A program made the translations under genes and the position numbers. This document shows positions 3,937-19,895 of a stretch of DNA of 64,000 nt, piece by piece; position 1 is the first letter of the stretch; every line of letters begins with the position of its first letter. The notes below the pieces were generated by a model. The model did no database searches, was not told the DNA's origin, and was given only the letters and a program-made list of their open reading frames with translations. The stretch spans positions 62,001 to 126,000 of the forward strand of contig CANSLJ010000002.1 in assembly GCA_947647735.1 (NCBI GenBank). Direction: 5' to 3'. This DNA is from an uncultured bacterium. GTDB taxonomy: Bacteria; Bacillota; Clostridia; Lachnospirales; Lachnospiraceae.

Positions 3937-5226
3937 TTATTTCAGGGAACTCTCCCTGTATATGATATCCTCTCTGCCCGGTCCGTTGCTCACCATCGTG
4001 ATCGGGTACTCGATCTGCTGCTCGATAAACTCAATATATTTTCTGCAGTTTTCCGGCAGATCCTCGTATTTTTTAATGCCTCTGATATCGCTCTTCCAGC
4101 CGGGCAATGTCTTCAGCACAGGTTTTGCCTTTTCCAGTTTATAAGTCACAGGGAAATCCGTCGTCACTTCCCCGTCTATCTCATAACCGATGCAGACCGG
4201 AATCTCATCCAGATATCCGAGTACGTCCAACACCGTAAACGCAACATCCGTCGTTCCCTGCAGACGGCAGCCGTATTTGGAAGCCACACAGTCAAACCAG
4301 CCCATTCTCCGGGGACGCCCCGTGGTCGCGCCGTACTCTCCGCCATCTCCGCCCCGGCGTCTCAGTTCATCCGCTTCCTCACCGAATATCTCAGACACAA
4401 AAGCACCTGCACCGACCGCGGAAGAATAAGCCTTACATACGGTTACGATCTGTTTGATCTCATAGGGCGGTATACCCGCGCCGATGGCACCGTAAGCCGC
4501 CAGTGTGGAAGAACTGGTCACCATCGGATAAATACCGTGATCCGTATCCTTCAACGTACCGAGCTGCCCCTCCAGCAGGACAGTCTTTCCTTCCTTCAAC
4601 GCCTTATGCAGATATAAGGACACATCGCAGACATAGGGCTCCACCATCTCCCTGTATTCCCGCAACGTAGAAAGCAGTTCCTCCGGCTGTAAAAGAGGCT
4701 TGTGATACAAATGCTCCAGTGTCACATTCTTGATCTCACAGACCTTTTTCAGCTTCTCCATGAGCGTTTCCTCATCAAACAGATCGCTGACCTGAATACC
4801 GATCTTCGCATATTTATCGGAATAAAAAGGCGCAATGCCGGACTTTGTGGAACCGAAAGACTTGCCCCCCAGCCGCTCCTCCTCATACTGGTCAAACAGG
4901 ATATGATAAGGCATCACGATCTGTGCTCTGTCGGAAACCAGAAGCTTTGGCGCAGGCACGCCCTTGTCCGTGATGGACTTCACTTCCTGAAAAAGTACGG
5001 GAATGTTCAATGCCACCCCGTTTCCTATAATACTTGTCGTATGCCCGTAGAACACACCGGAAGGAAGCGTATGCAATGCAAATTTACCATACTCATTTAC
5101 GATCGTATGCCCCGCATTGGCACCGCCCTGAAAACGGACAATGATATCCGCGTTTTCCGCCATCATATCCGTGATCTTTCCTTTTCCTTCATCTCCCCAG
5201 TTTGCCCCTACAACTGCTTTAACCAT
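3937..5226 (-). CDS. purA: Adenylosuccinate synthetase PurA
   Basis: A 429-residue GTP-dependent enzyme joining IMP and aspartate to adenylosuccinate, the first committed step to AMP. The N-terminal P-loop GANWGDEGKGKITD carries the catalytic Asp, followed by RFQGGANAGHTIV with the catalytic His. TTGRPRRMGWFD and the late IMP-site segments are also present. The length is normal. I start it at the MVKAVVG Met because GGAGGAAGAAAC lies just upstream; a longer frame to 5268 has no RBS of its own and overlaps purB. It is co-transcribed with purB 34 nt upstream. Confidence 0.97.
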   Translation of the reverse strand: MVKAVVGANWGDEGKGKITDMMAENADIIVRFQGGANAGHTIVNEYGKFALHTLPSGVFYGHTTSIIGNGVALNIPVLFQEVKSITDKGVPAPKLLVSDRAQIVMPYHILFDQYEEERLGGKSFGSTKSGIAPFYSDKYAKIGIQVSDLFDEETLMEKLKKVCEIKNVTLEHLYHKPLLQPEELLSTLREYREMVEPYVCDVSLYLHKALKEGKTVLLEGQLGTLKDTDHGIYPMVTSSSTLAAYGAIGAGIPPYEIKQIVTVCKAYSSAVGAGAFVSEIFGEEADELRRRGGDGGEYGATTGRPRRMGWFDCVASKYGCRLQGTTDVAFTVLDVLGYLDEIPVCIGYEIDGEVTTDFPVTYKLEKAKPVLKTLPGWKSDIRGIKKYEDLPENCRKYIEFIEQQIEYPITMVSNGPGREDIIYRESSLK

Positions 5227-5260
5227 GTTTCTTCCTCCATTCCAGTTCCGTAAGTGTCTA

Positions 5261-6694
5261 TTACACATTGATCTCCGCTTTCATACCAAGCAGTTCTTTA
5301 TTTTCCTCCATGATCGGAAGCACGACTTTGCTCAGGAACGCATCCACCTGCTCCGGCGCCCGCCCGATATATTTCGAAGGTTCCATGCAGGCTTCCAGCT
5401 CTTCCTTCGTCAAACCAAAGGTCTCATCCGCGGCGATCAGATCCAGCAGATTATTCTCACCGCCCTCGATCTTCACATTTTTCCCTGCCTCCATGGAAAG
5501 CTGGCGGATCTTCTCATGGATCTCCTGCCGGTCGCCCCCCGCCTTCACCGCATCCATCATGATATTTTCGGTTGCCATAAAGGGCAGCTCGCTCATCAGA
5601 CGTTTCTCGATCACCTTCGGATAGACCACCAGGCCGTCCACCACATTCAGACACAGATCCAGCACGCCGTCGATGGCGAGGAAAGCCTCCGGAATGGACA
5701 GCCGCTTGTTTGCTGAATCGTCCAGCGTCCTCTCAAACCACTGCACTGCGGAAGTCATAGCCGGATTCAGCGCCTCCGTCATCACATATCTGGACAGAGA
5801 TGCGATCCTCTCGCTCCGCATCGGATTTCTCTTATATGCCATCGCGGAAGAACCGATCTGATTTTTCTCAAAGGGTTCCTCCACCTCCTTTAAATGTTGC
5901 AGCAGACGGATGTCATTGCTCATCTTATGGGCGGACGCCGCGATCCCTGCCAACACATTACATACCCTTGTATCCACTTTTCTGGAATAGGTCTGACCGG
6001 ACACCGGATAACATTCCTTAAAGCCCATCTTCTTTGCGATCATCGGATCGATCATATCGATGACCTTCTGATCGCCGTCAAACAGTTCCATGAAGGACGC
6101 CTGCGTTCCGGTGGTCCCTTTAGACCCCAGAAGCTTCATGCCGTCCAGCACATGATCCAGATCCTCCAGATCCAGACAGAACTCCTGCATCCAGAGTGTT
6201 GCCCGCTTCCCCACCGTGGTAGGCTGCGCAGGCTGAAAATGCGTAAAGGCAAGGGTAGGCAGGCTCTTATAATTATCTGCAAACTGCGCCAGTTCATCCA
6301 GCACATTGACCAGTTTTTTCTTCACCAGTTTAAGCGCTTCCGTCATGACGATAATATCCGTATTATCGCCTACATAACAGGAGGTTGCCCCCAGATGGAT
6401 AATGCCCTTTGCCTTCGGACACTGCTGCCCGTAAGCATAGACATGGCTCATCACATCATGGCGGACTTTTCTCTCCCGTTCTTTTGCCACATCATAGTTG
6501 ATATTGTCCACATTTGCTTTCAGTTCGTCGATCTGTTCCTGTGTGATATCCAGTCCCAGCTCCTTCTCCGTCTCTGCAAGCGCGATCCACAGCCTTCTCC
6601 ATGTCCGGAATTTTTTATCCGGCGAAAAAATGTACTGCATCTCCTTGCTGGCGTACCGCTCCGAGAGCGGACTCACATATCTGTCTGTCCCCAT
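5261..6694 (-). CDS. purB: Adenylosuccinate lyase PurB
   Basis: A roughly 477-residue homotetrameric lyase of the fumarase/aspartase superfamily. It cleaves SAICAR to AICAR and adenylosuccinate to AMP, releasing fumarate. The family signature GSSAMAYKRNPMRSE (flexible catalytic loop with its Ser) is clear, as are the HLGATSCYVGDN and TLAFTHFQPAQPTT segments. Three ATGs lie close together (6706, 6700, 6694). I prefer 6694 because GGAG sits 6 nt upstream of it, although 6706 is possible. A short tandem repeat of AATAAAAAAACTGG separates it from the purF stop. Confidence 0.95.
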   Translation of the reverse strand: MGTDRYVSPLSERYASKEMQYIFSPDKKFRTWRRLWIALAETEKELGLDITQEQIDELKANVDNINYDVAKERERKVRHDVMSHVYAYGQQCPKAKGIIHLGATSCYVGDNTDIIVMTEALKLVKKKLVNVLDELAQFADNYKSLPTLAFTHFQPAQPTTVGKRATLWMQEFCLDLEDLDHVLDGMKLLGSKGTTGTQASFMELFDGDQKVIDMIDPMIAKKMGFKECYPVSGQTYSRKVDTRVCNVLAGIAASAHKMSNDIRLLQHLKEVEEPFEKNQIGSSAMAYKRNPMRSERIASLSRYVMTEALNPAMTSAVQWFERTLDDSANKRLSIPEAFLAIDGVLDLCLNVVDGLVVYPKVIEKRLMSELPFMATENIMMDAVKAGGDRQEIHEKIRQLSMEAGKNVKIEGGENNLLDLIAADETFGLTKEELEACMEPSKYIGRAPEQVDAFLSKVVLPIMEENKELLGMKAEINV

Positions 6695-6730
6695 ACTCAT
6701 CTCCATTCCAGTTTTTTTATTCCAGTTTTT

Positions 6731-8179
6731 TTATTCCACATACTCCCCGCGGATATCCTCTTTGGGCGGTTCGATCGGATATTCCCCGGTAAAGCAGCCC
6801 TCGCAGATACCCATGCCGCCCACCAGTTCCTTCAGTCTCTCAACCCGCAGATATCCCAGCGTGTCCGCGCCGATGACCTGCCTGATCTCCTCGATGCTCC
6901 TGTTGTAAGCGATCAGCTGCTCCCTTGCGGGCACATCCGTTCCGAAATAGCAGGGCCATAAAAACGGCGGCGCGCTGACGCGCATGTGCACTTCCTTCGC
7001 TCCGGCATCCCGCAGCATCCGCACGATCCTGTCGGAGGTCGTGCCCCTTACAATGGAATCATCGATCATCACGATCCGTTTTCCATCCACCGCCTCCCGG
7101 ATCGCATTCAGCTTTACCTGCACGCTGTTCTCCCGGCTCTTCTGCCCCGGTTTGATGAAAGTCCTTCCTATATAAGTATTTTTCACAAAAGCCTGCCCGT
7201 AGGGAATCCCCGACTGCATCGAATACCCCAGCGCCGCCACATTCCCGGACTCCGGCACACCCACCACAAGATCCGCCTCCACAGGAGAATCCATAGCAAG
7301 AAACTTTCCGGAAAGGATCCTGGACTGATAGACGCTGACTCCGTCCAAACGGCTGTCCGGCCTTGCAAAATAAATATACTCAAAAATACATCTGCCGTGC
7401 TTTGCCGGCTCGACGCACATGCTCTTATCCGATACGATACCTTTTCCCGGACTGATCGTCACGATCTCCCCCGGCTCCACATCCCGGATAAACTCCGCGC
7501 CGACCGTATCGAGAGCACAGCTTTCCGACGCCAGAATATAGGTATTGTCCCGCTTTCCGATGCAGAGCGGTTTAAATCCGAAAGGATCTCTCGCCCCGAT
7601 CAGCTTCCGCGGCGACATGATCACAAGGGCATAAGCCCCTTTGATCTTCGCCATGGCACGGGCAACCGCCTCCTCCACCGTTTTGGATTTCAGCCGTTCC
7701 CTCGCGATATGGTAGGCGATCACCTCAGAGTCGATCGTTGTCTGAAAAATAGCGCCCGTGTATTCCAACTCCCGCCGCAGTTCCGGCGCATTCACCAGAT
7801 TTCCGTTATGGGCAAGCCCCAGCGTACCCTTCACATAATTCAGCACAAGGGGCTGCGCATTTTCCCTTGTGGAAGACCCCGCCGTGGAATACCGCACATG
7901 GCCCACGCCGATGTCCCCTGCCAGTTTTCCCAGCTTTTTGGCGCTGAAGGATTCGTTCACGAGCCCCATATCTCTGGAAGAAAGGATCTTTCCCTTGGGA
8001 CCGTTCGTATCCGTAACCGCGATACCGCAGCTTTCCTGCCCTCTGTGCTGCAGGGATAAGAGCCCGTAATAAATGGTCTCCGCCACGTTCCCGCCATCAA
8101 AGTCATAGATGCCGAAAACGCCGCACTCCTCCCGCAGATTATCGTTTAACTCTTCCTGAACAAAAATTTCTCCCGGCAT
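6731..8179 (-). CDS. purF: Amidophosphoribosyltransferase PurF
   Basis: A 482-residue enzyme catalysing the first step of de novo purine synthesis (PRPP + glutamine to phosphoribosylamine). An 18-residue propeptide precedes CGVFGIYDF, so Cys19 becomes the N-terminal nucleophile of the Ntn-type glutaminase domain (about 19-250). The C-terminal phosphoribosyltransferase domain has the PRPP loop VMIDDSIVRGTT. C-terminal cysteines (CEGCFTGEYP) suit the clostridial/Bacillus 4Fe-4S type. It starts 2 nt after purC ends, so translation is probably coupled. Confidence 0.97.
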   Translation of the reverse strand: MPGEIFVQEELNDNLREECGVFGIYDFDGGNVAETIYYGLLSLQHRGQESCGIAVTDTNGPKGKILSSRDMGLVNESFSAKKLGKLAGDIGVGHVRYSTAGSSTRENAQPLVLNYVKGTLGLAHNGNLVNAPELRRELEYTGAIFQTTIDSEVIAYHIARERLKSKTVEEAVARAMAKIKGAYALVIMSPRKLIGARDPFGFKPLCIGKRDNTYILASESCALDTVGAEFIRDVEPGEIVTISPGKGIVSDKSMCVEPAKHGRCIFEYIYFARPDSRLDGVSVYQSRILSGKFLAMDSPVEADLVVGVPESGNVAALGYSMQSGIPYGQAFVKNTYIGRTFIKPGQKSRENSVQVKLNAIREAVDGKRIVMIDDSIVRGTTSDRIVRMLRDAGAKEVHMRVSAPPFLWPCYFGTDVPAREQLIAYNRSIEEIRQVIGADTLGYLRVERLKELVGGMGICEGCFTGEYPIEPPKEDIRGEYVE

Positions 8180-8181
8180 TC

Positions 8182-8886
8182 TTATAATCCCAATCTGTTG
8201 AATACTTCGTTATAGGCTTCCTCCACGTTTCCGAGATCTCTGCGGAAACGGTCTTTATCCAGTTTTTCGTTTGTATGTACATCCCACAGCCTGCAGGTAT
8301 CCGGGCTCACTTCGTCCGCCAGGATGATCTCGTCATGGTAGCGTCCGAACTCGATCTTGAAATCGATCAGCTTCATATCCGCCTGCAGGAAATAAGCTTT
8401 CAGCACATCGTTTACCTTGAAAGCATATTTTTTGATCGTCTCGATCTCCTCCCATGTCGCCAGCCCCAGCGCCACCGCAAAGTAGCTGTTGATCAAAGGA
8501 TCGCCCAGATCATCATTTTTATAGGAAAACTCTATTGTAGGGATCTGCAGCGCTGTACCCTCCTCCACGCCAAGCCTCTTGGAGAAAGAACCTGCCGCCA
8601 CATTCCGGATGATCACCTCAAGCGGTACGATCTCCACTTTCTTTACAACTGTTTCTCTATCACTCAACTCTTCAATATAATGGGTAGGCACGCCTTCCTT
8701 TTCCAGAAGCTGAAATACCCTGTTTGTCATACGGTTATTGATCGCGCCCTTTCCCACGATAGTGCCCTTTTTCTCGCCGTTAAAAGCGGTGGCATCATCC
8801 TTGTAGTCAACGATCAGCTTATCCGCATCGTCTGTCTTAAATACTTTTTTGGCTTTTCCCTCATAGAGCTGTTCTAATTTTTCCAT
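8182..8886 (-). CDS. purC: Phosphoribosylaminoimidazole-succinocarboxamide synthase PurC
   Basis: A 234-residue ATP-dependent ligase that joins CAIR with aspartate to SAICAR. The N-terminal [14 protein letters not shown] is the family hallmark, and the signatures [19 protein letters not shown] and DFKIEFGR are present. The start at 8886 follows CAGGAGGAAAAC; an in-frame extension to 8991 would run into the promoter leader and is not needed. First gene of the purC-purF-purB-purA operon. The other purine genes (purD, M, N, H, E) are not in this window. Confidence 0.97.
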
Positions 8887-8996
8887 GTTTTCCTCCTGTA
8901 GTTCCGGGCAGATACCTCCGCATGCCTGTCCGAAACGCAACTGAAGACTGAGAACAAAGTTCCCAATCCTGTTATCAGTTTCCTTTACCACTCCTT

Positions 8997-9025
8997 ATCA
9001 TAACGCATGAACGGATTTTATGCAA
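8997..9025 (-). promoter_or_regulatory. Promoter of the pur operon
   Basis: TTGCAT, 17-bp spacer, TATGAT on the minus strand, about 110 nt upstream of purC. The leader shows no recognisable purine riboswitch core. Confidence 0.6.
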
Positions 9026-9036
9026 CCAAAGTTAAT

Positions 9037-9062
9037 GAAAAAACAGGCTTTGTTAAGCCCGT
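9037..9062 (-). terminator. Intrinsic terminator of the amino-acid ABC operon
   Basis: On the minus strand GGGCTT-AACA-AAGCCT is followed by GTTTTTT, immediately after the TAA of the ATPase gene. The hairpin almost abuts the stop codon. Confidence 0.7.
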
Positions 9063-9839
9063 TTAATCATTCGTCAGTTTCCCGATAAATTCCTGCACAC
9101 GTTCTTTGGAAGAATTGAAAAGTTCCTCCGGGGTTCCCTCCTCCTGTATCAATCCATTCTCCATAAAAATAACACGGTCAGATACTTCTTTCGCAAAATT
9201 CATCTCATGGGTCACAATGATCATCGTCATATGTTCCTCCGCGAGCTGACGGATCACCTTCAAAACCTCCCCTGTCAGTTCGGGATCGAGTGCCGAAGTC
9301 GGTTCGTCAAAAAACAGAATTTCCGGCTTTAAAGCAAGCGCCCGGGCGATGGACACCCGCTGCTGCTGTCCGCCGGAAAGCTGACAGGGATAAGCCTTTG
9401 CCTTATCCTCCAGCCCCAACTGAGCAAGCAGCCTCTTTGCCGTCTCCTCCGCCTCTTTCTTCGGAACCTTCAAAACTCTCACGGGCGCATCCGTAATATT
9501 TTTCAGCACACTGTAGTGCGGAAACAGATTAAAGTTCTGGAACACCAGCCCGAAATAACGATGAAATTTCCTGAGTTCCCCTTTTGGCACATACACGGAA
9601 TCTCCGCTCTCCCCCTTCTCCGGCTTACAGACCACCCGTCCCAGATAAGAAAGGCTCCCGCCGTCCATCTTCTCCAGCAGCGTAGCACACCGAAGGAGTG
9701 TAGACTTCCCCGAACCCGAAGGCCCGATAACAGATACCACCTCTCCCTTTTTCACAGTAAGAGAAATATCCTTCAGAACCTCCAGCTCCCCAAACGCCTT
9801 CCGCATATGCCTTATTTCCAGTAAACTCTCTGCACCCAT
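9063..9839 (-). CDS. Polar amino-acid ABC transporter, ATP-binding protein
   Basis: ABC ATPase of the GlnQ/ArtP class energising amino-acid import. Walker [11 protein letters not shown]-loop [11 protein letters not shown], signature [14 protein letters not shown], Walker [13 protein letters not shown] and switch His VTHEMNFA are all intact. The start at 9839 is chosen for the AGGTGA located 6 nt upstream; in-frame TTG/GTG codons up to 9860 are alternatives. It follows the permease by about 45 nt and ends at a terminator. The exact amino acid cannot be assigned. Confidence 0.93.
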
Positions 9840-9884
9840 TCCGTCACCTGCACTCACCAATCTTTTTCACCCGACGTCCGGCTT

Positions 9885-10538
9885 TCAAGCCTCATAATAC
9901 CTGTAATGCTTCTCCACCTTCTCCATCGCCAGCGCCACCACCAGATTAAACACATAGTAATACGCCCCTGCGATCATCAGCGGTATGACAGTCGTCTCCG
10001 CCGCCGCAATCTGCTTCGCCACGGTAAACATCTCCGCCACCGCGATCACAAAAGCCAGAGAAGTGTCCTTCACTAACGTAATGATCTCATTTGTCACAGA
10101 GGGCAGGATCCGCTTGACCACCTGCGGCAGGATGATCAGGAAAAAGGTCTGCATTTTATTGTAGCCCAGCACCTGCGCCGCTTCATACTGTCCCCTGGGC
10201 ATGGATTCTATGCCGCCCCTGTAGATCTCCGCAAAGTAGGCGGCATAATTCACCGCGAATCCGATGATCACCGCTATAAACCGGTATGCCGCGGAGATCC
10301 GCACATGAAACAGATAGTAGGGACCGAAATACACCACAATGAGCTGCAGCATCAACGGCGTCCCCCTCATGATCGATATGTATACTTTTGTGATGGTTCT
10401 CAATATGCCGTTTTTCGACATCCGCCCAAAGGCAACGACCAGTCCCAGCGGCAGAGAAAACAGCAGTGTCAGGAAGAATATCTCCACTGACACTACAAGG
10501 CCGCCGCTGAGCTGTAAAAGCACTGTTCCGAAATTCAT
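9885..10538 (-). CDS. Polar amino-acid ABC transporter, permease
   Basis: A 217-residue inner-membrane permease of the HisM/GlnP family with about five membrane helices. The EAA-type cytoplasmic loop is visible as QYEAAQVLGYNKMQTFFLIILPQ, the site that contacts the ATPase. The N-terminal LSGGLVVSVEIFFLTLLFSLPLG is the first helix. Only one permease gene is present, so a homodimer is implied. It sits between the binding protein (14-nt gap) and the ATPase. Confidence 0.93.
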   Translation of the reverse strand: MNFGTVLLQLSGGLVVSVEIFFLTLLFSLPLGLVVAFGRMSKNGILRTITKVYISIMRGTPLMLQLIVVYFGPYYLFHVRISAAYRFIAVIIGFAVNYAAYFAEIYRGGIESMPRGQYEAAQVLGYNKMQTFFLIILPQVVKRILPSVTNEIITLVKDTSLAFVIAVAEMFTVAKQIAAAETTVIPLMIAGAYYYVFNLVVALAMEKVEKHYRYYEA

Positions 10539-10552
10539 TGTGAGATCCCGCC

Positions 10553-11341
10553 TTATTTATAATCCTCGATACAGAGAAAATCAGTCAGCCCGTACTTATC
10601 CGACAGCTCTGTCACTTTTCCGTCCTCATAAAGTTTGTAGATATCCTCCTGCACCTTATCGCGAAGCTCCGTATTTCCTTTCAGGAAACCGACTGCATAC
10701 TGCTCGGAAGCAAGACGCTCCTCCAGCATCACATAGCCGTCCCCTCTGGACTCGATCTGATAAGCCGCCACACCGATGTCCATGGCAAGACAATCAATAC
10801 CGCCTGCCTCCAGATCCATAAACGCCGTATTATAATCCGCGTACTGCGTCAGTTCGCCAAAACTTGCGAGCAATGCCGCATTATCCTCGCTCTCCAGCGC
10901 CGCCAGCGCGGAGGAATCCTTCTGCACACCGACAACCTTACCTGCCAGATCCGCCGGCACGCTGATACCGGAATCCGCCGCCACCACATAAACCTGACTG
11001 TTATCAATATAGGGATCGCTCCAGGTATAATCATCCTCACGCCCGTCCATCGTAAATCCATTCCAGATACAATCGATCGCGCCGGAAGATAACTCCATAT
11101 CCTTCGCATCCCAGTCAACCGGCTGTTTTACCAGTTCCCATCCCTCAAGGTCACAGACTGCCTGAGCCATCTCCAGGTCAAACCCCGTATACTCGCCGTT
11201 CTCGTCCGCATAGCCATAAGGCGGAAACTCCGCATCAAACCCTACCGTAAAAGTCTTTCCATCCTCCTTCTTGCCGCCGCATCCCGTCAGCATCCCCGCC
11301 GCCAGCACACCGCACAACATAAGCACCACTATCTTTTTCAT
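10553..11341 (-). CDS. Amino-acid ABC transporter, substrate-binding lipoprotein
   Basis: A 262-residue SBP_bac_3 lipoprotein. A signal peptide with lipobox LTGC (Cys21) is followed by the classic start FTVGFDAEFPPYGYADENGEYTGFD. ELSSGAIDCIWNGFT and the C-terminal YKLYEDGKVTELSDKYGL are family features. It delivers a polar amino acid to the adjacent permease. First gene of the operon; a sigma-A promoter and an operator-like dyad lie upstream (11385-11452). Confidence 0.93.
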   Translation of the reverse strand: MKKIVVLMLCGVLAAGMLTGCGGKKEDGKTFTVGFDAEFPPYGYADENGEYTGFDLEMAQAVCDLEGWELVKQPVDWDAKDMELSSGAIDCIWNGFTMDGREDDYTWSDPYIDNSQVYVVAADSGISVPADLAGKVVGVQKDSSALAALESEDNAALLASFGELTQYADYNTAFMDLEAGGIDCLAMDIGVAAYQIESRGDGYVMLEERLASEQYAVGFLKGNTELRDKVQEDIYKLYEDGKVTELSDKYGLTDFLCIEDYK

Positions 11342-11384
11342 AATGTTCCTCCTCTTTTGTCCTTTATCCTCATTATCGCATTGT

Positions 11385-11416
11385 CTTTAGTGATTTATCA
11401 ATTTATCACACTAAAG
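11385..11416 (-). promoter_or_regulatory. Operator-like inverted repeat downstream of the amino-acid ABC promoter
   Basis: Perfect 8-bp arms CTTTAGTG / CACTAAAG separated by 16 nt of AT-rich DNA, located just past the likely transcription start. It could be a repressor site or a leader hairpin; the cognate factor is unknown. Confidence 0.4.
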
Positions 11417-11423
11417 CGTTCTA

Positions 11424-11452
11424 ATCGTACCACACCATAGAATCACTGTCAA
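11424..11452 (-). promoter_or_regulatory. Promoter of the amino-acid ABC operon
   Basis: TTGACA, 17-bp spacer, TACGAT on the minus strand. It lies between the DUF5717 operon end and the binding-protein gene. Confidence 0.7.
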
Positions 11453-11461
11453 TACAGATTT

Positions 11462-12652
11462 TTATTTCTTCTGCTTCCCCTCATACTCCGAGATCAGCGC
11501 TAAGATCTCCCCCTTATACTTCGGATACCTCCCGCTGATATCCGTCACTTCCGCCTGCGCCGCCCTCGCCAGTTCGCGGTTATAGTCCATCTGCTCCCGG
11601 AGCGCCTTTCTCCTGCCCACAAGCCCCTGCCTGAGCCTCACCATCTCGTGCTCATCAAGAACAGCCGATACCTGATGGAGCCAGACGCTGGTATCCCGGA
11701 TACGTGCCTGGCGCAGAAGCCGTAAAAACTCCTTCTGATAATATGCAAAATCCCTGGAAGCCTGCTCCATCTGCTCCCGCTCCTCCTTCTCCTCCCTGTA
11801 TCTTTCCCAGAGAGATTCCAGTTCCGCAGATTTTTTCACATGGAATTTCAGACACAGATAATCCAGCAGATGCTTATTATTCACATACCGGATCTTCACT
11901 GTATTCTGCAGCAGAATCAGACGGTTGATATCCCGCTCCACCCGGACGATCTCCCGCCCCGCGTCGCCATGCTTCAAAAAGAGCTTCAGTATCACCACCG
12001 CCGCCAGACAGATCGCGACCACATACCACAGCCTTGTATCAAACCGCAGCGCCACCTGCAGGGCAAACAGGATGATCAGGCATACTACCAGCGCGATAAA
12101 ACAGATCACGGCAATACCGGAAGCGTTTTTGAGCTCCTGCTCCAGTTCCTCCTGCCGGTATTCATAGGCGTGGCGCTCACCGTTCAAGCGGCGCATATCG
12201 CTCTTTACCAGTTTGTGGTACTCCTCCGCCTCCTTCAGCTTCCGAAGCCCGTCCTCCACATCGTCCTCCAGCTGTTCCATCTTGGAAAACTCTTCATCCG
12301 ATATGCGGTTCTTCTTCTGGTTATAGTTCTTTTGCGTCTTTTCCAGTCCATGCAGCTTTTCCGCCATCTCCCGGATCTCCAGCCGCATCATTTCCGGCAG
12401 CCGCTCCAGCTCCTCGATATCTGTCAGATGGGAAGTTACCATATTATATTCATATTCCAGATGATGCAGTTCACGCTCAGCATCGGCAATCTGCTCCAGG
12501 CAGCCCCTGATATACTGTTCCCTCTCCTGGCTATTATGGAAATTGACATTCTCTCGATGAAAAACAGGTACCACCTGTTCTTCACCCTCTTCCAGAACCG
12601 CAGATATATTATTATTTCCTTTTTTTCTAAATAGTCTCTTCCAAAAACTCAT
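11462..12652 (-). CDS. Unknown membrane protein: coiled coil, two membrane helices, coiled coil
   Basis: A 396-residue protein with no recognised domain. A basic N-terminus (FWKRLFRKKG) leads into a long charged, heptad-like region (about 40-175), two hydrophobic helices (about 178-202 and 208-226) separated by a short loop, then a second helical/coiled-coil region (about 230-390). This suggests a membrane hairpin with both coiled coils in the cytoplasm. It is the last gene of the DUF5717-DUF5716 operon and overlaps the preceding gene by 4 nt (ATGA type), a sign of tight coupling. It may anchor the complex at the membrane; that is inference. Confidence 0.8.
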   Translation of the reverse strand: MSFWKRLFRKKGNNNISAVLEEGEEQVVPVFHRENVNFHNSQEREQYIRGCLEQIADAERELHHLEYEYNMVTSHLTDIEELERLPEMMRLEIREMAEKLHGLEKTQKNYNQKKNRISDEEFSKMEQLEDDVEDGLRKLKEAEEYHKLVKSDMRRLNGERHAYEYRQEELEQELKNASGIAVICFIALVVCLIILFALQVALRFDTRLWYVVAICLAAVVILKLFLKHGDAGREIVRVERDINRLILLQNTVKIRYVNNKHLLDYLCLKFHVKKSAELESLWERYREEKEEREQMEQASRDFAYYQKEFLRLLRQARIRDTSVWLHQVSAVLDEHEMVRLRQGLVGRRKALREQMDYNRELARAAQAEVTDISGRYPKYKGEILALISEYEGKQKK

Positions 12653-13476
12653 GGCTGCGCCACCATCTCTCTGTATTTTCTTCTCATTCCTAATAGTTTT
12701 CCTGATATCATCTCATAATACTCTGCATCATGCTGCGAAAGGATACCTATAAGTTCCCTGTATTCCCCAGAACTTTCATAGTCCCTTTTCTGTTCTTCCA
12801 TCAACCTCTCCACTTCCAGAGACATCTCATGCCATACAGGCTCATTTGCAATAAAGGTAATATATTCTCCCTCCGAAAGGCTCATGCGCAAAGCCGCAAG
12901 ATACCGTATCCCAGCTTCCTGATTATCAGGATTTTCCTGATAAGCCGCCTGAAAGGCTTTTGCCGCCTCCTCAAAAGAAAACAATCTGCAAAAGGCTACT
13001 CCCTTATTATGGAACAGCTCAGAACGCATCACATGATTCATGGAAGGAATCTCCTCCAACACTCTCTCGTATTCCGCAATTGCCTGTGTATAACGCCGGT
13101 TTGTCACCAGATAATCCGCAAAATGCTTTCTTCTGGTGGTAGCATCCATATCTGCGCTCACCCGCAGCAGCTCCTCTGTCTCCTGCCTTTTCTTCTCCGA
13201 ACCAAAATGGGCATATTCCAGTATCGTACTCACAAACGTGCTGGGGGATGCATTCTGGCTGATCAGTGTATAAAGCGGCCTTGCAAGCCCCTTAAGCCCG
13301 CACTCCTCATCCAGCCATTTTGCCAACTTCAGATCCAGAAGTCCCCGGTCTAACAAAAAGGTATTTTGACATAAGGCAAAACAAAGCTCTTCCACACAAT
13401 ATACTGTTGTGTCTGTCTGTGCTATATAATAGGGAGTTTCAGCATACTTCCCCACTGTTTCGATCAATCTTCCCAT
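12649..13476 (-). CDS. TPR-like helical repeat protein of unknown function
   Basis: A 275-residue soluble protein. Residues about 115-200 contain TPR-like helix pairs (RRYTQAIAEYERVLEEIPSM, then NKGVAFCRLFSFEEAAKAF followed by AYQENPDNQEA), which usually mediate protein-protein contacts. The N-terminal part (YYIAQTDTTVYCVEELCFAL) is conserved-looking but unassigned. It begins 24 nt after the DUF5716 gene and overlaps the downstream membrane-protein gene by 4 nt. Probably an adaptor within the four-protein set. Confidence 0.8.
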   Translation of the reverse strand: MGRLIETVGKYAETPYYIAQTDTTVYCVEELCFALCQNTFLLDRGLLDLKLAKWLDEECGLKGLARPLYTLISQNASPSTFVSTILEYAHFGSEKKRQETEELLRVSADMDATTRRKHFADYLVTNRRYTQAIAEYERVLEEIPSMNHVMRSELFHNKGVAFCRLFSFEEAAKAFQAAYQENPDNQEAGIRYLAALRMSLSEGEYITFIANEPVWHEMSLEVERLMEEQKRDYESSGEYRELIGILSQHDAEYYEMISGKLLGMRRKYREMVAQP

Positions 13477-13500
13477 GTCCGTACTCTCTTTACTAACGAT

Positions 13501-14835
13501 TTATGCTAACGGAATATCCTGTTCCCAGACCTGGGATGACGTCGGATATATTTCTCCGAATCCCATATCCTCCGTTCTGATATGCAGATTCCCGGCATCA
13601 CTCATCCCTATCCAAATATGCAGCCTTGCCGTTCCTTCTGGTCTTAGCGGAAGCCCTGGAAGTTCTATCTTTTCATAACGTACCGGATATTTTCCCGCTG
13701 CTTCCCTTTCCGGGAATACATTGGTCAGCGGTGTTAAGGTCACCTGAAAACTGTTTCCTGACTCCAAATAAAATTCCTTCTCACAGGCCGCATCATACCA
13801 GTTGATGCCTGCATCCAAAAGTGGTAAATACACTTCTCTTCCTTCCCGCAATACCTGCAGTCCGATATTGGTCTTCAGTTTTTCTCTCCCCAAAAAAATA
13901 TGTTCTTTTCCTTCTTTTGTGGGGCAGAATTTCTCCAGCGCACCGTAAGCCGCCCCTTTACTGTAGAGATTATTTCCTTTAAAAACCCTTCTCCCTCTGC
14001 AAATATACTGCAAGGTTCGATCGGCCCAGTTTTCCTGAAAACCACTTCCGATCAAAAAGACGGAACTGATCGCTCTGTTCTGGAAAGTCCCTATCGCATT
14101 TTCCAAGACCTGTTGATCCAGTTCTTCCATCTGCCCGTTTTTCTCTGCTTCCCCTTCGGCCCAAATAGGTTGTAGACACTCTGGAAATTCCTGCTCCGTC
14201 ACGAAAGAAACCACCGGCATTGTCCGCCTGTTCCATTCCAACAGATAGATTCTCAGGCAATCCTCGAAATCCAACACCACCGATCCTGCAAGTCTAAACT
14301 CTGGTGTCTGATGCAACAAATAATAGTAATAGCTTTCCTCATGATTTTGAAAAAATACTTTGGTACCTATCAACCCGAGTGACTCCACAATTTGTTTCAC
14401 AATCTCTATGACACGATCGTCAGATTTTCGTGCTGTAAACATCAACACTTCTATTTTGTCAGAGGGCGCAATCATATAAAACAACCCGAAACACTTTTTC
14501 ACAAACAGGGTGAGCAGGGTAAGCATATCATACTCCACCCCCTCAATCACAGTCTTCTTCCCCTCTATCGCTCCGGAAAACAGGTTATCCACAATAATTC
14601 CTTCTTTTGCCTCCGCGACAATCAACGCTTCCCTGCCGTAAATCCATTGATTTACACCAGTGCGTTTGCAGAGCACGGTGGGAATATTGTACTGCTGGGT
14701 TCCCGCAACCACCGGCACCGTCTCCGCCTCTGTCTGCTGTGTACTGCAATAACTGATTTGAGCATCTCTGTCTCCCAGATCAAAGCCTACCATATATTTT
14801 ATATTCTTTTTTTCAAGACTCTTTTCCAACAGCAT
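13501..14835 (-). CDS. DUF5716 family protein with actin/Hsp70-like fold
   Basis: A 444-residue protein. The N-terminal VGFDLGDRDAQISYC (about 16-30) resembles the phosphate-1 loop of the actin/Hsp70 ATPase superfamily, VFLIGSGFQ (about 259-267) the adenosine motif, and GNNLYSKGAAYGAL the following Hsp70-type helix. The phosphate-2 position reads VVLDFEDCLR rather than the usual DxGGGT, so nucleotide hydrolysis may be weak or absent. A beta-rich C-terminal region follows, as in DUF5716_C. The family is uncharacterised and typical of Lachnospiraceae. It lies 20 nt after the DUF5717 gene. Confidence 0.82.
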   Translation of the reverse strand: MLLEKSLEKKNIKYMVGFDLGDRDAQISYCSTQQTEAETVPVVAGTQQYNIPTVLCKRTGVNQWIYGREALIVAEAKEGIIVDNLFSGAIEGKKTVIEGVEYDMLTLLTLFVKKCFGLFYMIAPSDKIEVLMFTARKSDDRVIEIVKQIVESLGLIGTKVFFQNHEESYYYYLLHQTPEFRLAGSVVLDFEDCLRIYLLEWNRRTMPVVSFVTEQEFPECLQPIWAEGEAEKNGQMEELDQQVLENAIGTFQNRAISSVFLIGSGFQENWADRTLQYICRGRRVFKGNNLYSKGAAYGALEKFCPTKEGKEHIFLGREKLKTNIGLQVLREGREVYLPLLDAGINWYDAACEKEFYLESGNSFQVTLTPLTNVFPEREAAGKYPVRYEKIELPGLPLRPEGTARLHIWIGMSDAGNLHIRTEDMGFGEIYPTSSQVWEQDIPLA

Positions 14836-14855
14836 ACTATATTCCAGTTCCTTCT

Positions 14856-17800
14856 TTATTTAAGAGCAAACAACGCTTCCTGCAAAGCATCTGTCTTCTC
14901 ATACTCCAGCATCATATGGTCTAAAGTGTCATAATCTTGCAGCGCTTCCGCTATCACAATATCATTCAGCATATGAAACCGGCTCCCCGACACATCTACA
15001 TCCATCTCGCCCCGTGAGATACTCCCACTTCCAGTAATCTCCTCCTGCCTTCCGTTTTCATCCTCATACTCTTCTGAAATATAGTAGAGCAGTTTTTCTC
15101 CAAAAAACAAAACAAACATATTACAGAAAACGCCATCATAGACTTCCTTCATCTCGATCTTCCGGAAGTCTTCCGCCTCCTCTTGTTCGATCATATAGTA
15201 AAGATAGGCTTTTCGTCCAGGCTTTGTCCTGTGCTCCAAAATCGTTTTATCACAAAAACGGCGCACAGATGGACAAATATCCGCATACTCCAGATAATAG
15301 GGAAGTATCAGTCCCTCTTCCGTCAGTTTATAAAGGCACTCTTCCAGAACCTTTCTGCTTCCCTTTTGGAGTTTATTCCGATTTTCGGCATAATATCTGG
15401 TATACGCAAGAATACACACTTTCTGCATCTGCTCTCCGAGACGAAGGAGTCTCTCCAGCTCCTCAAAAACCACGGTTTCTGTCACTTTATCCTTTACAAA
15501 ATAATCATAGCAGCATTGAGATATAAAAGCTTTTTCCAGAGGAAGGTCCGTATCCCTTTCCATAGCTGTTCCAAAGATACCTGCCACCTCTCCGACAAAA
15601 CAGCCCGAATACAACATCTGAACCAGAATCTTCTCACTGAAAGCATGTACATCCATGCCTCTTTCCCCGGCGCTCTTCCAAATATCCCTCAAGATTTTTG
15701 TGCTTCCCCGATAGTATTCCATCAGATACTCCAGTGTTATCATGTCTGACTTTCCCTTTTGGAACGCATAAAAACACATGAAAAGCAGGATTTTGTCTTC
15801 CACCTGATTTACACCCTGTATGATCTTTGAAGAAAGCCGGAGCAATGTTTTAGGAGCAACACCGTTTACACCATACTCCCGAATCCATTCCATCGCTTTT
15901 TCTGTTTTTTCCCGCAGTACCAAATATCGTATTATCTCACCTCTTCTTGCTGCATCCAACAAGGAAGGAGATATTTCATCCAAAAATACATCCAGTTCTT
16001 CCATCCTGTCATGATCAAAATAAAACTGTGCCATGCCCGGAATAATAGTTCTCTTATAATCTTCTGCCACTTCTTCACTGGCAAGGAGACTTTCAAATCG
16101 CTTGATATTATCCTCAGTCATATTGACAAGATGACCACCACATAAATGCATTTGTAAAGGTATCGTCTGAAAATCCCTCTGCTGCGCCTCCCAGAGAAGT
16201 CCATCCTCCACGAAAAGCCTTTCTATCTCAAAATTCTCATCCGGCACATAACGGTTTCCAAAGCCATCCTCCAAAAGCAATGTATATTCATCCCCATAGA
16301 GCGGCAGCACTGCCTCTCCATCGGTGAGTGTATAACTTTTTTCTGCCAGCTCCCTTACATATAACACCAAAAGTCTACGCATCCGCCTATCTGTCGTCTT
16401 CACATGCACTGAAAACAGGAGTGGTGCCAGCTTTTCTCCCGCTTCCTCCAGCATCACATTCCCCATCGTAATCTTCTTATATAAGAAAGACAAATGCCTG
16501 TTGATCAACCCTTTCTGAATCATCTGCACCACAAATTCCTGCATATGAAAACGCTCTTTTTCATACAGATCCGGCAGCGTATCCCTGTTCTGCAACAGGG
16601 ACGCATACAGATAGGCACTTCTCTCCCAGTCCAGATTATTGTGATAAGCAAAATACATATAGATCACCTTGGGAAGTTTTACCAATTCCCCTATATCCAG
16701 ACTGTACATATAATATTCATATAACTTCGTGATCCGCAGGTTCTCCTCCACCCCGGCAGCATACCACGGAAAGTCCTCTATTCCCCGACGGTTTCCTCTA
16801 ATCAGCAGGGTACATATATTCTGCAGAGTTTCCGCATCCGGCCTCTTTTCATAGCTTTTTTTCAGTATTGGCAAAAGCCCGTCTATACTGCACTGCGCCC
16901 TTGGCACAAGATAATGGAGCTGCATAATGATCTCGTCTGTCATCAGATCATGCTTCGCCGCATAGCGCAGCATCTGCATTTCAAACTCTCCCAGTTCCAT
17001 AAACAGCGAGGGTTCCGACTTAATCAGTAGAAGCGCCTCAATATAAAAAACAGGACTGTTACAACCTCTTTCAAACTGCTGTTTAATAAACATCCATTTT
17101 TTTACATAAGACATATTGTATTCCGGTGACAGATATAGCAACAGCCACCCCAGCCGCCAGTTGTCCGGTTCTTTTGCATAAGAAGATGCCACTTCCTCTG
17201 CTATCGTATTTACATAATGCTCATCCCTGCCTCGCAGTGTACTCAGATACAAATAATAGCACCATACTGCATTATCCATGTCTTTACTCTGCAAGATTGC
17301 ATTACGTGCCTGATCCAGCATCCACCCCGCCTCGTTCATCCTGCCTTCCGTGATCAGAAGATGCGCCCTGTACAGCTTTGGTTCCGGGTCAGTATTATTC
17401 ATTTCTGTCCAACTGTCCATGATTTCATAATTCTTACTCAGCCAGGTTCTTGTACTGATCTTCTTCATGCGGAAAGCCCCATAGTATTCCATCACTCTGA
17501 CCAGCAGTTCCTGTCTTTTCCTGTGCTGCAAATCCTGCTTATATACTTCATCTTCCACTTTAACTTCGATCGGAACAGAAGTTTCCATAAAGCTATTGTA
17601 AAAACGCAGGAAACCATAATTTATGCCCTTATGCAGCTTACTACTATCCACATAATAATAGAAAAGGCAGCGATTCCCGAGGAAATCATCATCGCTGAGC
17701 ACCGGCTTATCCACAGAAAGAAAGTCACCCTTTATCTCCACCTGCAAGTGGGTATAACCCCATCCGTTCTTAGTAAGGAGTACCTCATGGCGTCCTATGC

Positions 17801-18422
17801 CCTCTGCTACATCATCAAGGCGCAGTTTATCCTCATCAATAATATAATTTATTTTCTGTTTCTTATGGATGGCAATCAGGAACTCTTCCACGTTCCGCTC
17901 ATTACCATAATATTTTGAGAGTCCTCGATATAAGTTTTTATATTTCCGGTCGCTCCCCTCAAAGAGTACTTCAAAACCAGGATTATAAAAAAGTTGTACA
18001 GCCTCCGCCCAGTTACTCTTCGCCAGATTTGCAAAATGGAACAGATTCTTTATGGCTCCCATACTTGTTCCCAGCGTCTTCTGAGAAACCATCACAACAA
18101 AAGGAAGGGCATATTCCCCCTGATTACTGACAACGTAAAAATTCCCCTGCAGCACATCACCGTTTTCCATGCCTTTTCCATGGAATATGTAGCCAATCTC
18201 CTCACCTGTTCCAAAAAACTCTCCTGTCAGGCATTCCATCCTGACATCAGATGTATAGATAAAGCCCTTCGTGATGTGTCCGGGTTTTCCAAGCAAATGA
18301 AAACTTCCCTCGTAGTTAGCGCCCGCCTGCAGTCTAATCTCAATTCTGCTCTCGGAGAACTCCAGTCCGGCTCTTTCATATTCAAATTTTCCGTCTAAAA
18401 TTCTGTCAATAGCCTCTCTCAT
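14856..18422 (-). CDS. DUF5717 family giant helical-repeat protein
   Basis: A 1188-residue soluble protein with no signal peptide or membrane helix. The N-terminal ~270 residues are beta-rich (SRIEIRLQAGANYEGSFHL, then GFLRFYNSFMETSVPIEVKV), like a pair of sandwich domains. Most of the rest (about 300-1100) is helical and repeat-like, with TPR-type pairs such as KLYRAHLLITEGRMNEAGWM. The C-terminus includes a conserved-looking beta segment (VYDGVFCNMFVLFFGEKLLYY). It matches DUF5717, found next to DUF5716 genes. First gene of a four-gene operon with its own promoter. The scale suggests a scaffold; the function is unknown. Confidence 0.82.
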   Translation of the reverse strand: MREAIDRILDGKFEYERAGLEFSESRIEIRLQAGANYEGSFHLLGKPGHITKGFIYTSDVRMECLTGEFFGTGEEIGYIFHGKGMENGDVLQGNFYVVSNQGEYALPFVVMVSQKTLGTSMGAIKNLFHFANLAKSNWAEAVQLFYNPGFEVLFEGSDRKYKNLYRGLSKYYGNERNVEEFLIAIHKKQKINYIIDEDKLRLDDVAEGIGRHEVLLTKNGWGYTHLQVEIKGDFLSVDKPVLSDDDFLGNRCLFYYYVDSSKLHKGINYGFLRFYNSFMETSVPIEVKVEDEVYKQDLQHRKRQELLVRVMEYYGAFRMKKISTRTWLSKNYEIMDSWTEMNNTDPEPKLYRAHLLITEGRMNEAGWMLDQARNAILQSKDMDNAVWCYYLYLSTLRGRDEHYVNTIAEEVASSYAKEPDNWRLGWLLLYLSPEYNMSYVKKWMFIKQQFERGCNSPVFYIEALLLIKSEPSLFMELGEFEMQMLRYAAKHDLMTDEIIMQLHYLVPRAQCSIDGLLPILKKSYEKRPDAETLQNICTLLIRGNRRGIEDFPWYAAGVEENLRITKLYEYYMYSLDIGELVKLPKVIYMYFAYHNNLDWERSAYLYASLLQNRDTLPDLYEKERFHMQEFVVQMIQKGLINRHLSFLYKKITMGNVMLEEAGEKLAPLLFSVHVKTTDRRMRRLLVLYVRELAEKSYTLTDGEAVLPLYGDEYTLLLEDGFGNRYVPDENFEIERLFVEDGLLWEAQQRDFQTIPLQMHLCGGHLVNMTEDNIKRFESLLASEEVAEDYKRTIIPGMAQFYFDHDRMEELDVFLDEISPSLLDAARRGEIIRYLVLREKTEKAMEWIREYGVNGVAPKTLLRLSSKIIQGVNQVEDKILLFMCFYAFQKGKSDMITLEYLMEYYRGSTKILRDIWKSAGERGMDVHAFSEKILVQMLYSGCFVGEVAGIFGTAMERDTDLPLEKAFISQCCYDYFVKDKVTETVVFEELERLLRLGEQMQKVCILAYTRYYAENRNKLQKGSRKVLEECLYKLTEEGLILPYYLEYADICPSVRRFCDKTILEHRTKPGRKAYLYYMIEQEEAEDFRKIEMKEVYDGVFCNMFVLFFGEKLLYYISEEYEDENGRQEEITGSGSISRGEMDVDVSGSRFHMLNDIVIAEALQDYDTLDHMMLEYEKTDALQEALFALK

Positions 18423-18611: not shown

Positions 18612-18735
18612 ATACATGATACATTTATTTATGCGAAACCGAAATCAGCATAAGCTCGGACAGTGCACAAGACGATTTTCTGATGCGGATGCAGCAGGAA
18701 ATTGTCTTAGACCATGGTGTACTGGGATAGGGCAA

Positions 18736-18758
18736 ATGCATCGCATAATGCGATGCAT
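18736..18758 (+). promoter_or_regulatory. Perfect 11-bp palindrome in the PotD leader
   Basis: ATGCATCGCAT-A-ATGCGATGCAT: two perfect 11-bp arms around a single base, about 35 nt upstream of the start codon. The 1-nt centre suits a dimeric DNA-binding protein better than an RNA hairpin, but a hairpin with a slightly opened loop could also form near the RBS. Confidence 0.5.
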
Positions 18759-18791
18759 CGCGGAACTGGAATAGAAAATAGGAGGACTAAG

Positions 18792-19895
18792 ATGAAACGT
18801 ACTTTCGCACTACTTGCGGCAGGTATTTTAACTCTGGGATGCGCCTGCGCACTTTCAGGCTGCGGCGGCAGCGGGGATTCTTCATCAGAGGACAAGGACG
18901 GAAACGGCTACGCTGATGAAATCTATCTTTATAACTGGTCGGAATACATGACACAGGACATTCTGGATCAGTTTGAGGAAGAATATGGGATCAAGGTTAT
19001 TGAAACCACCTATGAATCCAACGATGAACTGCTGGCAAAACTGATCGCCGGCAAAGAGGGCGAATATGATATAGCTGTTCCCACAAATACATATATTCAG
19101 GCATTTAAGGACAATGATCTCCTCGAACCTTTTGACGAGGGCGCCATCACCAACTTAGGCAATATCGATGATGCCTACCTTGGCCTTATTTACGATCCTG
19201 AAAACGAGTATACCGTTCCCTATATGGGCACGATCAACGTTGCACTCGCCAATAAACCGATGATGGATGAACTGGGTATCACGGTAAATACCGCGGAAGA
19301 CCTGTTAAATCCCGCTCTGGAAAATAATCTCCTGATCTTTGATGACATCGAGAGCAATATCACGCTGGCACTGCAGGGCAGCGGTATCGATCCTGTGACC
19401 ACGGATCTTGCGGCCCTTGATACGGCGAAAGAATTCCTGCTGCAGCTTAACCCCAACCTGAAATCCTACTCCCAGATCGCGGATGAGCGGATCTCCATCA
19501 CAAGAGGGGAAGTTGCGCTGGCTTATATCTACAGCGGCGACGCCATCCAGGCTATGCGCGAGAACAGCGAGCTGGAGGTTGTCATGAAACAGGAACAGTT
19601 CCCTCTGACCATCGACAATCTTGTGATCTTAAAGGGAACAAGGCATAAAAAAGAAGCGCAGCTCTTTATCGATTTCCTGCTCCGCCCGGAAATCTCCGCT
19701 GAACTGTTATCCGAGTTTTCCTATGTTTGCTTCAACGAGGCTGCCACGGAATACCTTCCGCAGGATCTTGTGGATATGGAAGTCTGCGTTCTTTCCGATG
19801 AGATCAAAAACAATCTTGTGGTGATCAATGAGAAGGACGGCGAGATGCTGGATAAGATGGTGACGGTTATGACGGAAGTGAAGTCCGCAAAATAA
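18792..19895 (+). CDS. potD: PotD-like spermidine/putrescine-binding lipoprotein (orphan)
   Basis: A 367-residue solute-binding protein of the PotD/PotF family. A signal peptide with lipobox LSGC (Cys24) precedes the family start EIYLYNWSEYMTQDILDQFEEEYG, then VPTNTYIQAFKDNDLLEP and the ligand-lobe segment ISITRGEVALAYIYSGDA. It should bind polyamines or a related cation outside the membrane. The start at 18792 follows TAGGAGGACTAAG. No potABC genes are adjacent: the gene stands alone between its own promoter and terminator. It may therefore serve a transporter encoded elsewhere or act as a sensor. Confidence 0.88.
   Translation: MKRTFALLAAGILTLGCACALSGCGGSGDSSSEDKDGNGYADEIYLYNWSEYMTQDILDQFEEEYGIKVIETTYESNDELLAKLIAGKEGEYDIAVPTNTYIQAFKDNDLLEPFDEGAITNLGNIDDAYLGLIYDPENEYTVPYMGTINVALANKPMMDELGITVNTAEDLLNPALENNLLIFDDIESNITLALQGSGIDPVTTDLAALDTAKEFLLQLNPNLKSYSQIADERISITRGEVALAYIYSGDAIQAMRENSELEVVMKQEQFPLTIDNLVILKGTRHKKEAQLFIDFLLRPEISAELLSEFSYVCFNEAATEYLPQDLVDMEVCVLSDEIKNNLVVINEKDGEMLDKMVTVMTEVKSAK

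Follow-up and report, generated by a model that had tools for sequence, protein, structure and literature searches.

A predicted lidless pseudo-Hsp70 in a near-universal Lachnospiraceae operon, read as the reduced form of a larger Hsp70/GrpE cluster

The operon described here lies within a stretch of 64,000 nucleotides (nt; the whole stretch is referred to as the window) from an uncultured Lachnospiraceae bacterium (GenBank assembly GCA_947647735.1, contig CANSLJ010000002.1), and encodes DUF5717, DUF5716, a tetratricopeptide repeat (TPR) protein and, as an optional fourth component, a membrane protein. Profile comparison identifies DUF5716 as a lidless pseudo-Hsp70, in which a region homologous to the Hsp70 ATPase domain, with degraded ATP motifs, would be followed by a beta substrate-binding domain. 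On a judgement that we regard as evenly balanced, the operon represents the surviving core of an Hsp70-based machine and would act as a nucleotide-independent, sometimes membrane-tethered, pseudo-chaperone scaffold. The basis for this reading comprises near-full-length profile homology, degraded ATP motifs, the absence of a lid, conserved gene order, five fusions of DUF5716 to the TPR protein and matching flanking genes. The first-pass annotation had considered a cytoskeletal, secretion or chaperone-like machine, and the main thing absent from its interpretation is a larger cluster, found at the homologous locus in sister families of the same order, which specifies three Hsp70s (Hsp70-A, C and D), a long GrpE-domain protein (c2) and a pseudo-Hsp70 of the DUF5716 type.

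Homology of DUF5716 to Hsp70

Profile-profile alignment with hhalign matched DUF5716 to the 545-aa Hsp70-C of the sister loci (99.7%, E 2.6e-26) over 407 columns, residues 12-436 against 19-527, the match being colinear and running through the beta domain; the match to Hsp70-D (86.5%) was restricted to residues 15-156, that is, to the first ~140 residues. Alignment to the sister pseudo-Hsp70 reached 100% (E 1.4e-55), and a control alignment of DUF5716 to the unrelated c2 profile reached 0.1%. When searched against the PDB, the DUF5716 profile retrieved DnaK at E 3e-4 over the ATPase domain, and for the sister pseudo-Hsp70 profile the DnaK alignment spans positions 17-496 of the profile (best E 3.7e-18). 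Among the sister pseudo-Hsp70 members, 8 of 12 match the Hsp70 family PF00012 and 11 of 12 match PF18980 (DUF5716_C), and these proteins therefore form a bridge between the two families. DUF5716 thus resembles Hsp70/DnaK in the colinear succession of ATPase-domain homology and beta substrate-binding domain, but differs by its degraded ATP motifs, the lack of a helical lid and the lack of recognition by PF00012.

The ATP motifs GIDxGTT (phosphate 1), Lys70, Glu-Pro and DxGGGT (phosphate 2) were compared in an alignment of 15 Hsp70-A, 16 Hsp70-C, 12 Hsp70-D, 18 sister pseudo-Hsp70 and 15 DUF5716 rows. The phosphate-1 Thr-Thr, Lys70, Glu-Pro and the phosphate-2 Gly-Gly-Gly-Thr are intact in every row of Hsp70-A, C and D, and none of them is the commonest at its own column in DUF5716; the sister pseudo-Hsp70 displays the same loss, although 14 of its 18 rows retain the first phosphate-2 Gly. 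After the beta domain 16-28 residues remain in DUF5716, 4-20 in the sister pseudo-Hsp70, 12-13 in Hsp70-A and 20-32 in Hsp70-C, as compared to 214-219 in Hsp70-D and 163 in the DnaK of the window genome, so that DUF5716 has no helical lid as judged by tail length. The earlier proposal of a core from the actin/Hsp70 superfamily, its phosphate-2 loop degraded, is supported by profile comparison and motif alignment, and of the options originally suggested the chaperone-like one stands.

The operon, its partners and its distribution

The four open reading frames are situated on the minus strand of the window exactly as first annotated, with spacings of 20 nt and 24 nt followed by a 4-nt overlap:

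18422-14856, minus strand: DUF5717 gene, 1188 aa; PF18984 (DUF5717_N) E 6.9e-289, PF18983 (DUF5717) E 3.1e-87
14835-13501, minus strand: DUF5716 gene, 444 aa; PF18980 (DUF5716_C) E 8.3e-83
13476-12649, minus strand: TPR gene, 275 aa; TPR_2 at 31.5 bits (Pfam cut-off 27)
12652-11462, minus strand: optional membrane gene, 396 aa; a helix-rich part, hydrophobic stretches and a second helix-rich part

Across phylum, class, order and family samples the system is confined to one order, bar marginal matches, and is near-universal in Lachnospiraceae. DUF5716_C was detected in 145 of 150 sampled Lachnospiraceae genomes, and three of the other five carry DUF5717 (two of them in pieces), such that 148 of the 150 possess at least one of the two; the remaining pair, G029 and G091, have neither and represent natural controls for phenotype comparison. 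DUF5717_N was present in 5 of 398 genomes of the phylum sample, all of them Lachnospiraceae, and a wider DUF5717 profile matched 13 of 291 genomes of the class sample, ten being Lachnospiraceae and three lying outside the order with marginal matches (E 9.5e-6 to 7.7e-4, ~90 residues). Of the 196 genomes in the order sample 89 have DUF5716_C, and two matches per genome are frequent in the distant ones. No relatives of DUF5716 were found in a scan of viral contigs or in a plasmid search.

Gene order was assessed at 40 of the 145 Lachnospiraceae loci, a non-random set made up of all five loci with a DUF5716 frame of >600 aa, five divergent loci and 30 others. With profiles built largely from those same 40 loci, the order DUF5717, DUF5716, TPR on one strand was established for 39, five of which have DUF5716 and TPR fused; the exception, L075, has DUF5716 only. 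The fusion, present in 5 of 145 Lachnospiraceae genomes as one protein of 684-723 aa, was confirmed by the TPR profile. Conserved synteny in other Lachnospiraceae, on which the initial interpretation depended, was thereby upheld for the trio. A membrane gene follows the trio at 13 of the 40 loci according to profiles, and BLAST with the window proteins recovered DUF5716 at 40, DUF5717 at 39, the TPR protein at 38 and the membrane protein at 13. An aminotransferase-like gene lies immediately upstream and divergent at 15 of the 40 loci, and a valyl-tRNA synthetase-like gene no more than seven genes downstream of DUF5717 at 16, both being named by eye.

The membrane protein matched no Pfam family over its cut-off. 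Its hydrophobic stretches, located within residues 173-230, fit the two membrane helices that had been predicted, and weak matches to SMC/Rad50 are suggestive of coiled coil. The membrane profile matched 45 of 100 Lachnospiraceae genomes, 44 of them strongly, and left 55 without a match. In 43 of the 44 the strong match shares the strand of the DUF5716 match and lies 747-1261 bases downstream of it; the remaining genome, a fragmented assembly, has it on a different contig. Weak matches elsewhere were seen in G013 and, as a second one, in G047 (E 2.4e-6 and 4.5e-4). The membrane gene is thus optional, yet it keeps its place beside DUF5716 where present, and the core consequently consists of three genes rather than four. 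From the original description of a four-gene operon the order of DUF5717, DUF5716 and TPR stands, but an obligatory fourth gene was rejected.

DUF5717 is a large protein with a probably TPR-like alpha-solenoid and with an N-terminal part of ~330 aa that, by eye, is probably beta. TPR_19 matched 2 of 15 members of the wider DUF5717 alignment (best 9e-7), and the wider profile retrieved GmaR (E 1.6e-4) and a consensus TPR protein (E 8e-4) from the PDB; a profile constructed from Lachnospiraceae members alone retrieved a single PDB chain at E 0.33. The TPR protein comprises a conserved N-terminal part in addition to its TPR.

An actin/Hsp70-superfamily body with a membrane gene beside it, as in 43 of the 44 strong-match genomes, would also suit an actin-like cytoskeletal or secretion-type membrane machine, in which an FtsA/PilM-like scaffold works with a membrane coiled coil. 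We consider this quite improbable. Since the match of DUF5716 runs through the beta substrate-binding domain, a mark of Hsp70 and not of actin, MreB or FtsA, the protein appears to be specifically Hsp70-like and the cytoskeletal suggestion is unlikely. None of 17 DUF5716 members matched PilM or an actin-type family (MreB, FtsA, ParM) at E up to 1, a search in which HMMER filters drop many weak matches; MreB matches were obtained for the canonical Hsp70s of the sister clusters, which can be expected of Hsp70s. Inspection by eye of 20 neighbour clusters revealed no gene for a pilus or for secretion, which counts against the secretion option, and the optional status of the membrane gene fits poorly with either version.

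The suggestion that a single promoter drives the operon was not substantiated: a promoter-like site at 18474-18446, just upstream of position 18422 and on the right strand, scores 9/12, and the number of such sites in the region is no more than somewhat above expectation (21 seen against 13.6 by chance, standard deviation 3.5). Six near relatives, obtained from a scan with DUF5717 as single protein and 76-81% identical to it, contain all four genes in the same order; their record titles include Lachnospiraceae bacterium and a metagenome-assembled genome of [Clostridium] symbiosum. Comparison with four of these six gave ratios of nonsynonymous to synonymous substitution rates (dN/dS) of 0.045-0.154 for all four genes, at dS 0.9-3.1, and all four therefore look to be under purifying selection, the estimate being rough as dS is partly saturated. 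Downstream of the operon (window 8182-11341, minus strand) are genes named by eye as an amino-acid ABC transporter (binding protein, permease and ATPase) and a purC-like gene, and genes belonging to these clusters also come after the trio at other Lachnospiraceae loci, such as L048 and L052. The divergent upstream gene (window 18714-19895, plus strand) resembles, by eye, a solute-binding lipoprotein of the spermidine/putrescine type.

A larger Hsp70/GrpE cluster and its reduction

Elsewhere in the order, outside Lachnospiraceae, the corresponding locus contains up to eight genes, encoding DUF5717, Hsp70-A, C and D, all with intact ATP motifs and without a helical lid, the long GrpE-domain protein c2, the DUF5716-type pseudo-Hsp70, the TPR protein and sometimes the membrane protein. 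Twenty loci of the order sample were compared, two of which, L089 (Lachnospiraceae) and L088, have the short form, the other 18 being the sister loci. Clustering and profiles placed the pseudo-Hsp70 and c2 at all 18, Hsp70-A at 15, Hsp70-C at 16, full-length Hsp70-D at 12, a DUF5717-like protein at 13, the TPR protein at 12 and the membrane protein at three (L081, L083 and L091). Several of the loci run into the end of a contig or stretch, and one family contributes five loci of which four (L084, L085, L092 and L096) are incomplete or rearranged. A Pfam scan of L090 confirmed the assignments at that locus.

Hsp70-D, a protein of 690-727 aa (L090:11000-13087 and 11 other sister loci), carries its long tail in the position of the lid, and in L090, the sole member scanned, Pfam assigns this tail to a vWA domain. 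The c2 protein (L090:6142-7839 and homologues), encoded beside the Hsp70s, measures 564-645 aa at 17 of 18 loci and 279 aa at L083. It shares with GrpE a C-terminal head, PF01025 being over its cut-off at c2 in 10 of 10 sister genomes besides the ordinary GrpE of each genome, and it differs from GrpE by its length and its long helical N-terminal part. A single-protein Pfam scan of the L090 c2 found no family at E 0.1, and the c2 profile matched the head of the PDB GrpE 4ani at E 8e-5, with designed helical bundles matching the middle of c2 equally or better. No c2 was found in 100 Lachnospiraceae genomes, where nine weak head-only matches in frames of 206-263 aa are presumably ordinary GrpE. 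In the class sample the c2 profile matched 56 of 391 genomes; 55 of these matches are to the head and fall in frames of 170-274 aa, and the last, within a frame of 511 aa, covers the middle of the profile only.

At L083 (positions 4102-17929), which represents the closest sister family, both Hsp70-D and the TPR protein seem to be split, by assembly error or decay, and these frameshift-like splits were not used as evidence. Varied inserts between cluster genes were seen at L077 and L094, comprising, by eye, Uma2-like, metallo-beta-lactamase-fold and lipoprotein genes. Genes in and around ten sister clusters were also inspected by eye for a hint of function, an approach that was dropped as they look unrelated and varied.

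The Lachnospiraceae cluster lacks the three intact-motif Hsp70s and the GrpE-type protein, and retains the pseudo-Hsp70 (DUF5716), DUF5717 and TPR. In a tree of Hsp70s, DUF5716 groups with the pseudo-Hsp70 of L083 (support 1.0), and the DnaK and two ~560-aa Hsp70s of the window genome fall outside clades A, C and D; this genome holds two further weak HSP70-family matches, one of which is MreB-like by eye. An rpoB tree of 30 genomes, of which the deep nodes are partly weak (one at 0.152), placed f143, the family with the full cluster of L083, as sister to Lachnospiraceae (support 0.987) and f160, the family of L081 and L091 whose full cluster includes the membrane gene, on the next outward branch (support 0.99); the other full-cluster families, f150, f154, f157 and f162, are on other branches of the order. 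DUF5717 was absent from 8 of 8 genomes tested outside Lachnospiraceae in the order, and as such genomes are interspersed among the full-cluster branches, losses must be common too. The flanking genes agree between Lachnospiraceae and sister loci: by eye, the aminotransferase-like gene is also upstream at L081, L082, L090 and L091, and the valyl-tRNA synthetase-like gene directly follows the membrane gene at L081 and L083. Given full clusters on successive branches outside Lachnospiraceae, the simplest reading is that the window operon is a reduced descendant of an ancestral full cluster, which would have been reduced in place in Lachnospiraceae with losses elsewhere. The converse, an ancestral small operon from which the big cluster arose by expansion, was set aside, as reduction is the simpler account of the rpoB tree and of big clusters being spread over several branches.

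Proposed function and significance

In the scaffold reading DUF5716 would operate without ATP cycling, its body and beta substrate-binding domain serving as a fixed binding module that the TPR protein and the large DUF5717 solenoid may hold, while the product of the fourth gene, where present, would anchor the complex at the membrane. The action would be that of a constitutive scaffold or holdase for some client protein and not that of a refolding chaperone. More tentatively, and at less than even confidence, we suggest that the whole family keeps such a nucleotide-independent pseudo-Hsp70 complex as core machinery, this being the scaffold of an ancestral, GrpE-driven assembly of four Hsp70s that has remained near-universal in spite of the loss of the members with intact motifs.

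Several points weigh against the scaffold reading. The link between DUF5716 and Hsp70 appears through profiles and sister proteins, PF00012 matches 0 of 17 DUF5716 members on their own, and in the PDB match to DnaK the beta-domain stretch is correctly ordered but not significant alone. Of the 18 sister pseudo-Hsp70 rows, 17 retain the phosphate-1 Asp and 17 the phosphate-2 Asp; of the 15 DUF5716 rows, 13 and 10 do so, respectively, and nucleotide may still be bound despite the poor motifs of DUF5716. Co-inheritance does not prove a complex, the DnaK and GrpE of the cell could supply ATP-driven work in trans, and with 55 of 100 genomes lacking the membrane gene anchoring cannot be a general property. 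The search for copies of Hsp70-A, C and D away from the cluster covered one genome, that of the window, which is 86.6% complete. Finally, the genome of L088 (G704), labelled as family f147, carries the short Lachnospiraceae-type trio, through mis-binning or transfer.

Some of the same observations would suit a DUF5716 that still binds nucleotide and regulates the DnaK of the cell, as an Hsp110-like exchange factor or a co-chaperone, with the TPR protein docking DnaK. Hsp110 provides a precedent for an Hsp70-like exchange factor, and the Hsp70 homology with its retained beta domain, the phosphate-1 Asp in 13 of 15 rows and the presence of DnaK and two other Hsp70s in the window genome are all compatible with such a role. 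Among the many TPRs that the TPR profile matches are those of Hsp70 co-chaperones, CHIP for example, but such a match is generic; moreover, DUF5716 has lost Lys70 and the phosphate-2 Gly-Gly-Thr, and a search of 100 Lachnospiraceae genomes gave no dedicated partner of the GrpE type. On balance we deem this alternative unlikely.

The scaffold reading was also compared with what is in print. The window proteins are plain members of PF18980, PF18984 and PF18983, for which the Pfam descriptions give the function as unknown, and in agreement with the first-pass annotation, which knew of no described function, open-access PMC papers yielded no description of the operon under its DUF names or under combinations of Hsp70, GrpE, vWA and TPR. 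The one paper holding the word DUF5716 (PMC8115291) does so, in the passage concerned, as a domain call in the human protein max, and the two HSP70 passages of eLife 2021;10:e70394 have no bearing on the operon. The closest theme in print is a subset of the GAP1-N2 GTPase-centred systems (eLife 2020;9:e52696) that combines HSP70 and GrpE with another, incomplete HSP70, a TPR/FNIII scaffold and vWA. These elements recur here as a theme, the pairing of HSP70 with GrpE in the sister families only. The differences are that nine cluster proteins of L090 and L081 gave no match to a GTPase, GAP1 or DnaJ, the other genes of the 18 sister loci being judged for GTPase and GAP1 by clustering and eye only, and that the window system is near-universal in one family and, in the samples, within one order.

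This shared theme raises the alternative of a conflict (defence) system under chaperone regulation, related to the GAP1-N2 HSP70/GrpE neighbourhoods but lacking their GTPase, and PADLOC does give matches of the sister Hsp70s and TPR protein to candidate models without a name (best 8e-9 and 2e-7). We hold it to be very improbable. Defence systems are usually patchy in distribution, and the near-universality (148 of 150 Lachnospiraceae genomes) and conservation of the operon would favour a core role over a patchy defence island; DUF5716 had no plasmid match, and no GTPase occurs among the nine cluster proteins scanned. Among the window proteins PADLOC matches the membrane protein only (JetC, E 8e-4), which coiled coil could explain.

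If the more tentative reading of a family-wide pseudo-Hsp70 complex is true, an Hsp70 body together with its beta domain would be able to serve as a permanent structural or client-holding module. The sister clusters offer a natural experiment, in which the same scaffold occurs with and without intact-motif Hsp70s, and their set of lidless Hsp70s, the vWA-tailed type with its domain in the lid position and the long GrpE-domain protein should be of interest to the chaperone field. Lachnospiraceae rank among the principal gut bacteria of humans, and a conserved operon that is represented in 148 of 150 of their sampled genomes, and for which the literature searched gave no function, points towards a basic process specific to this family.

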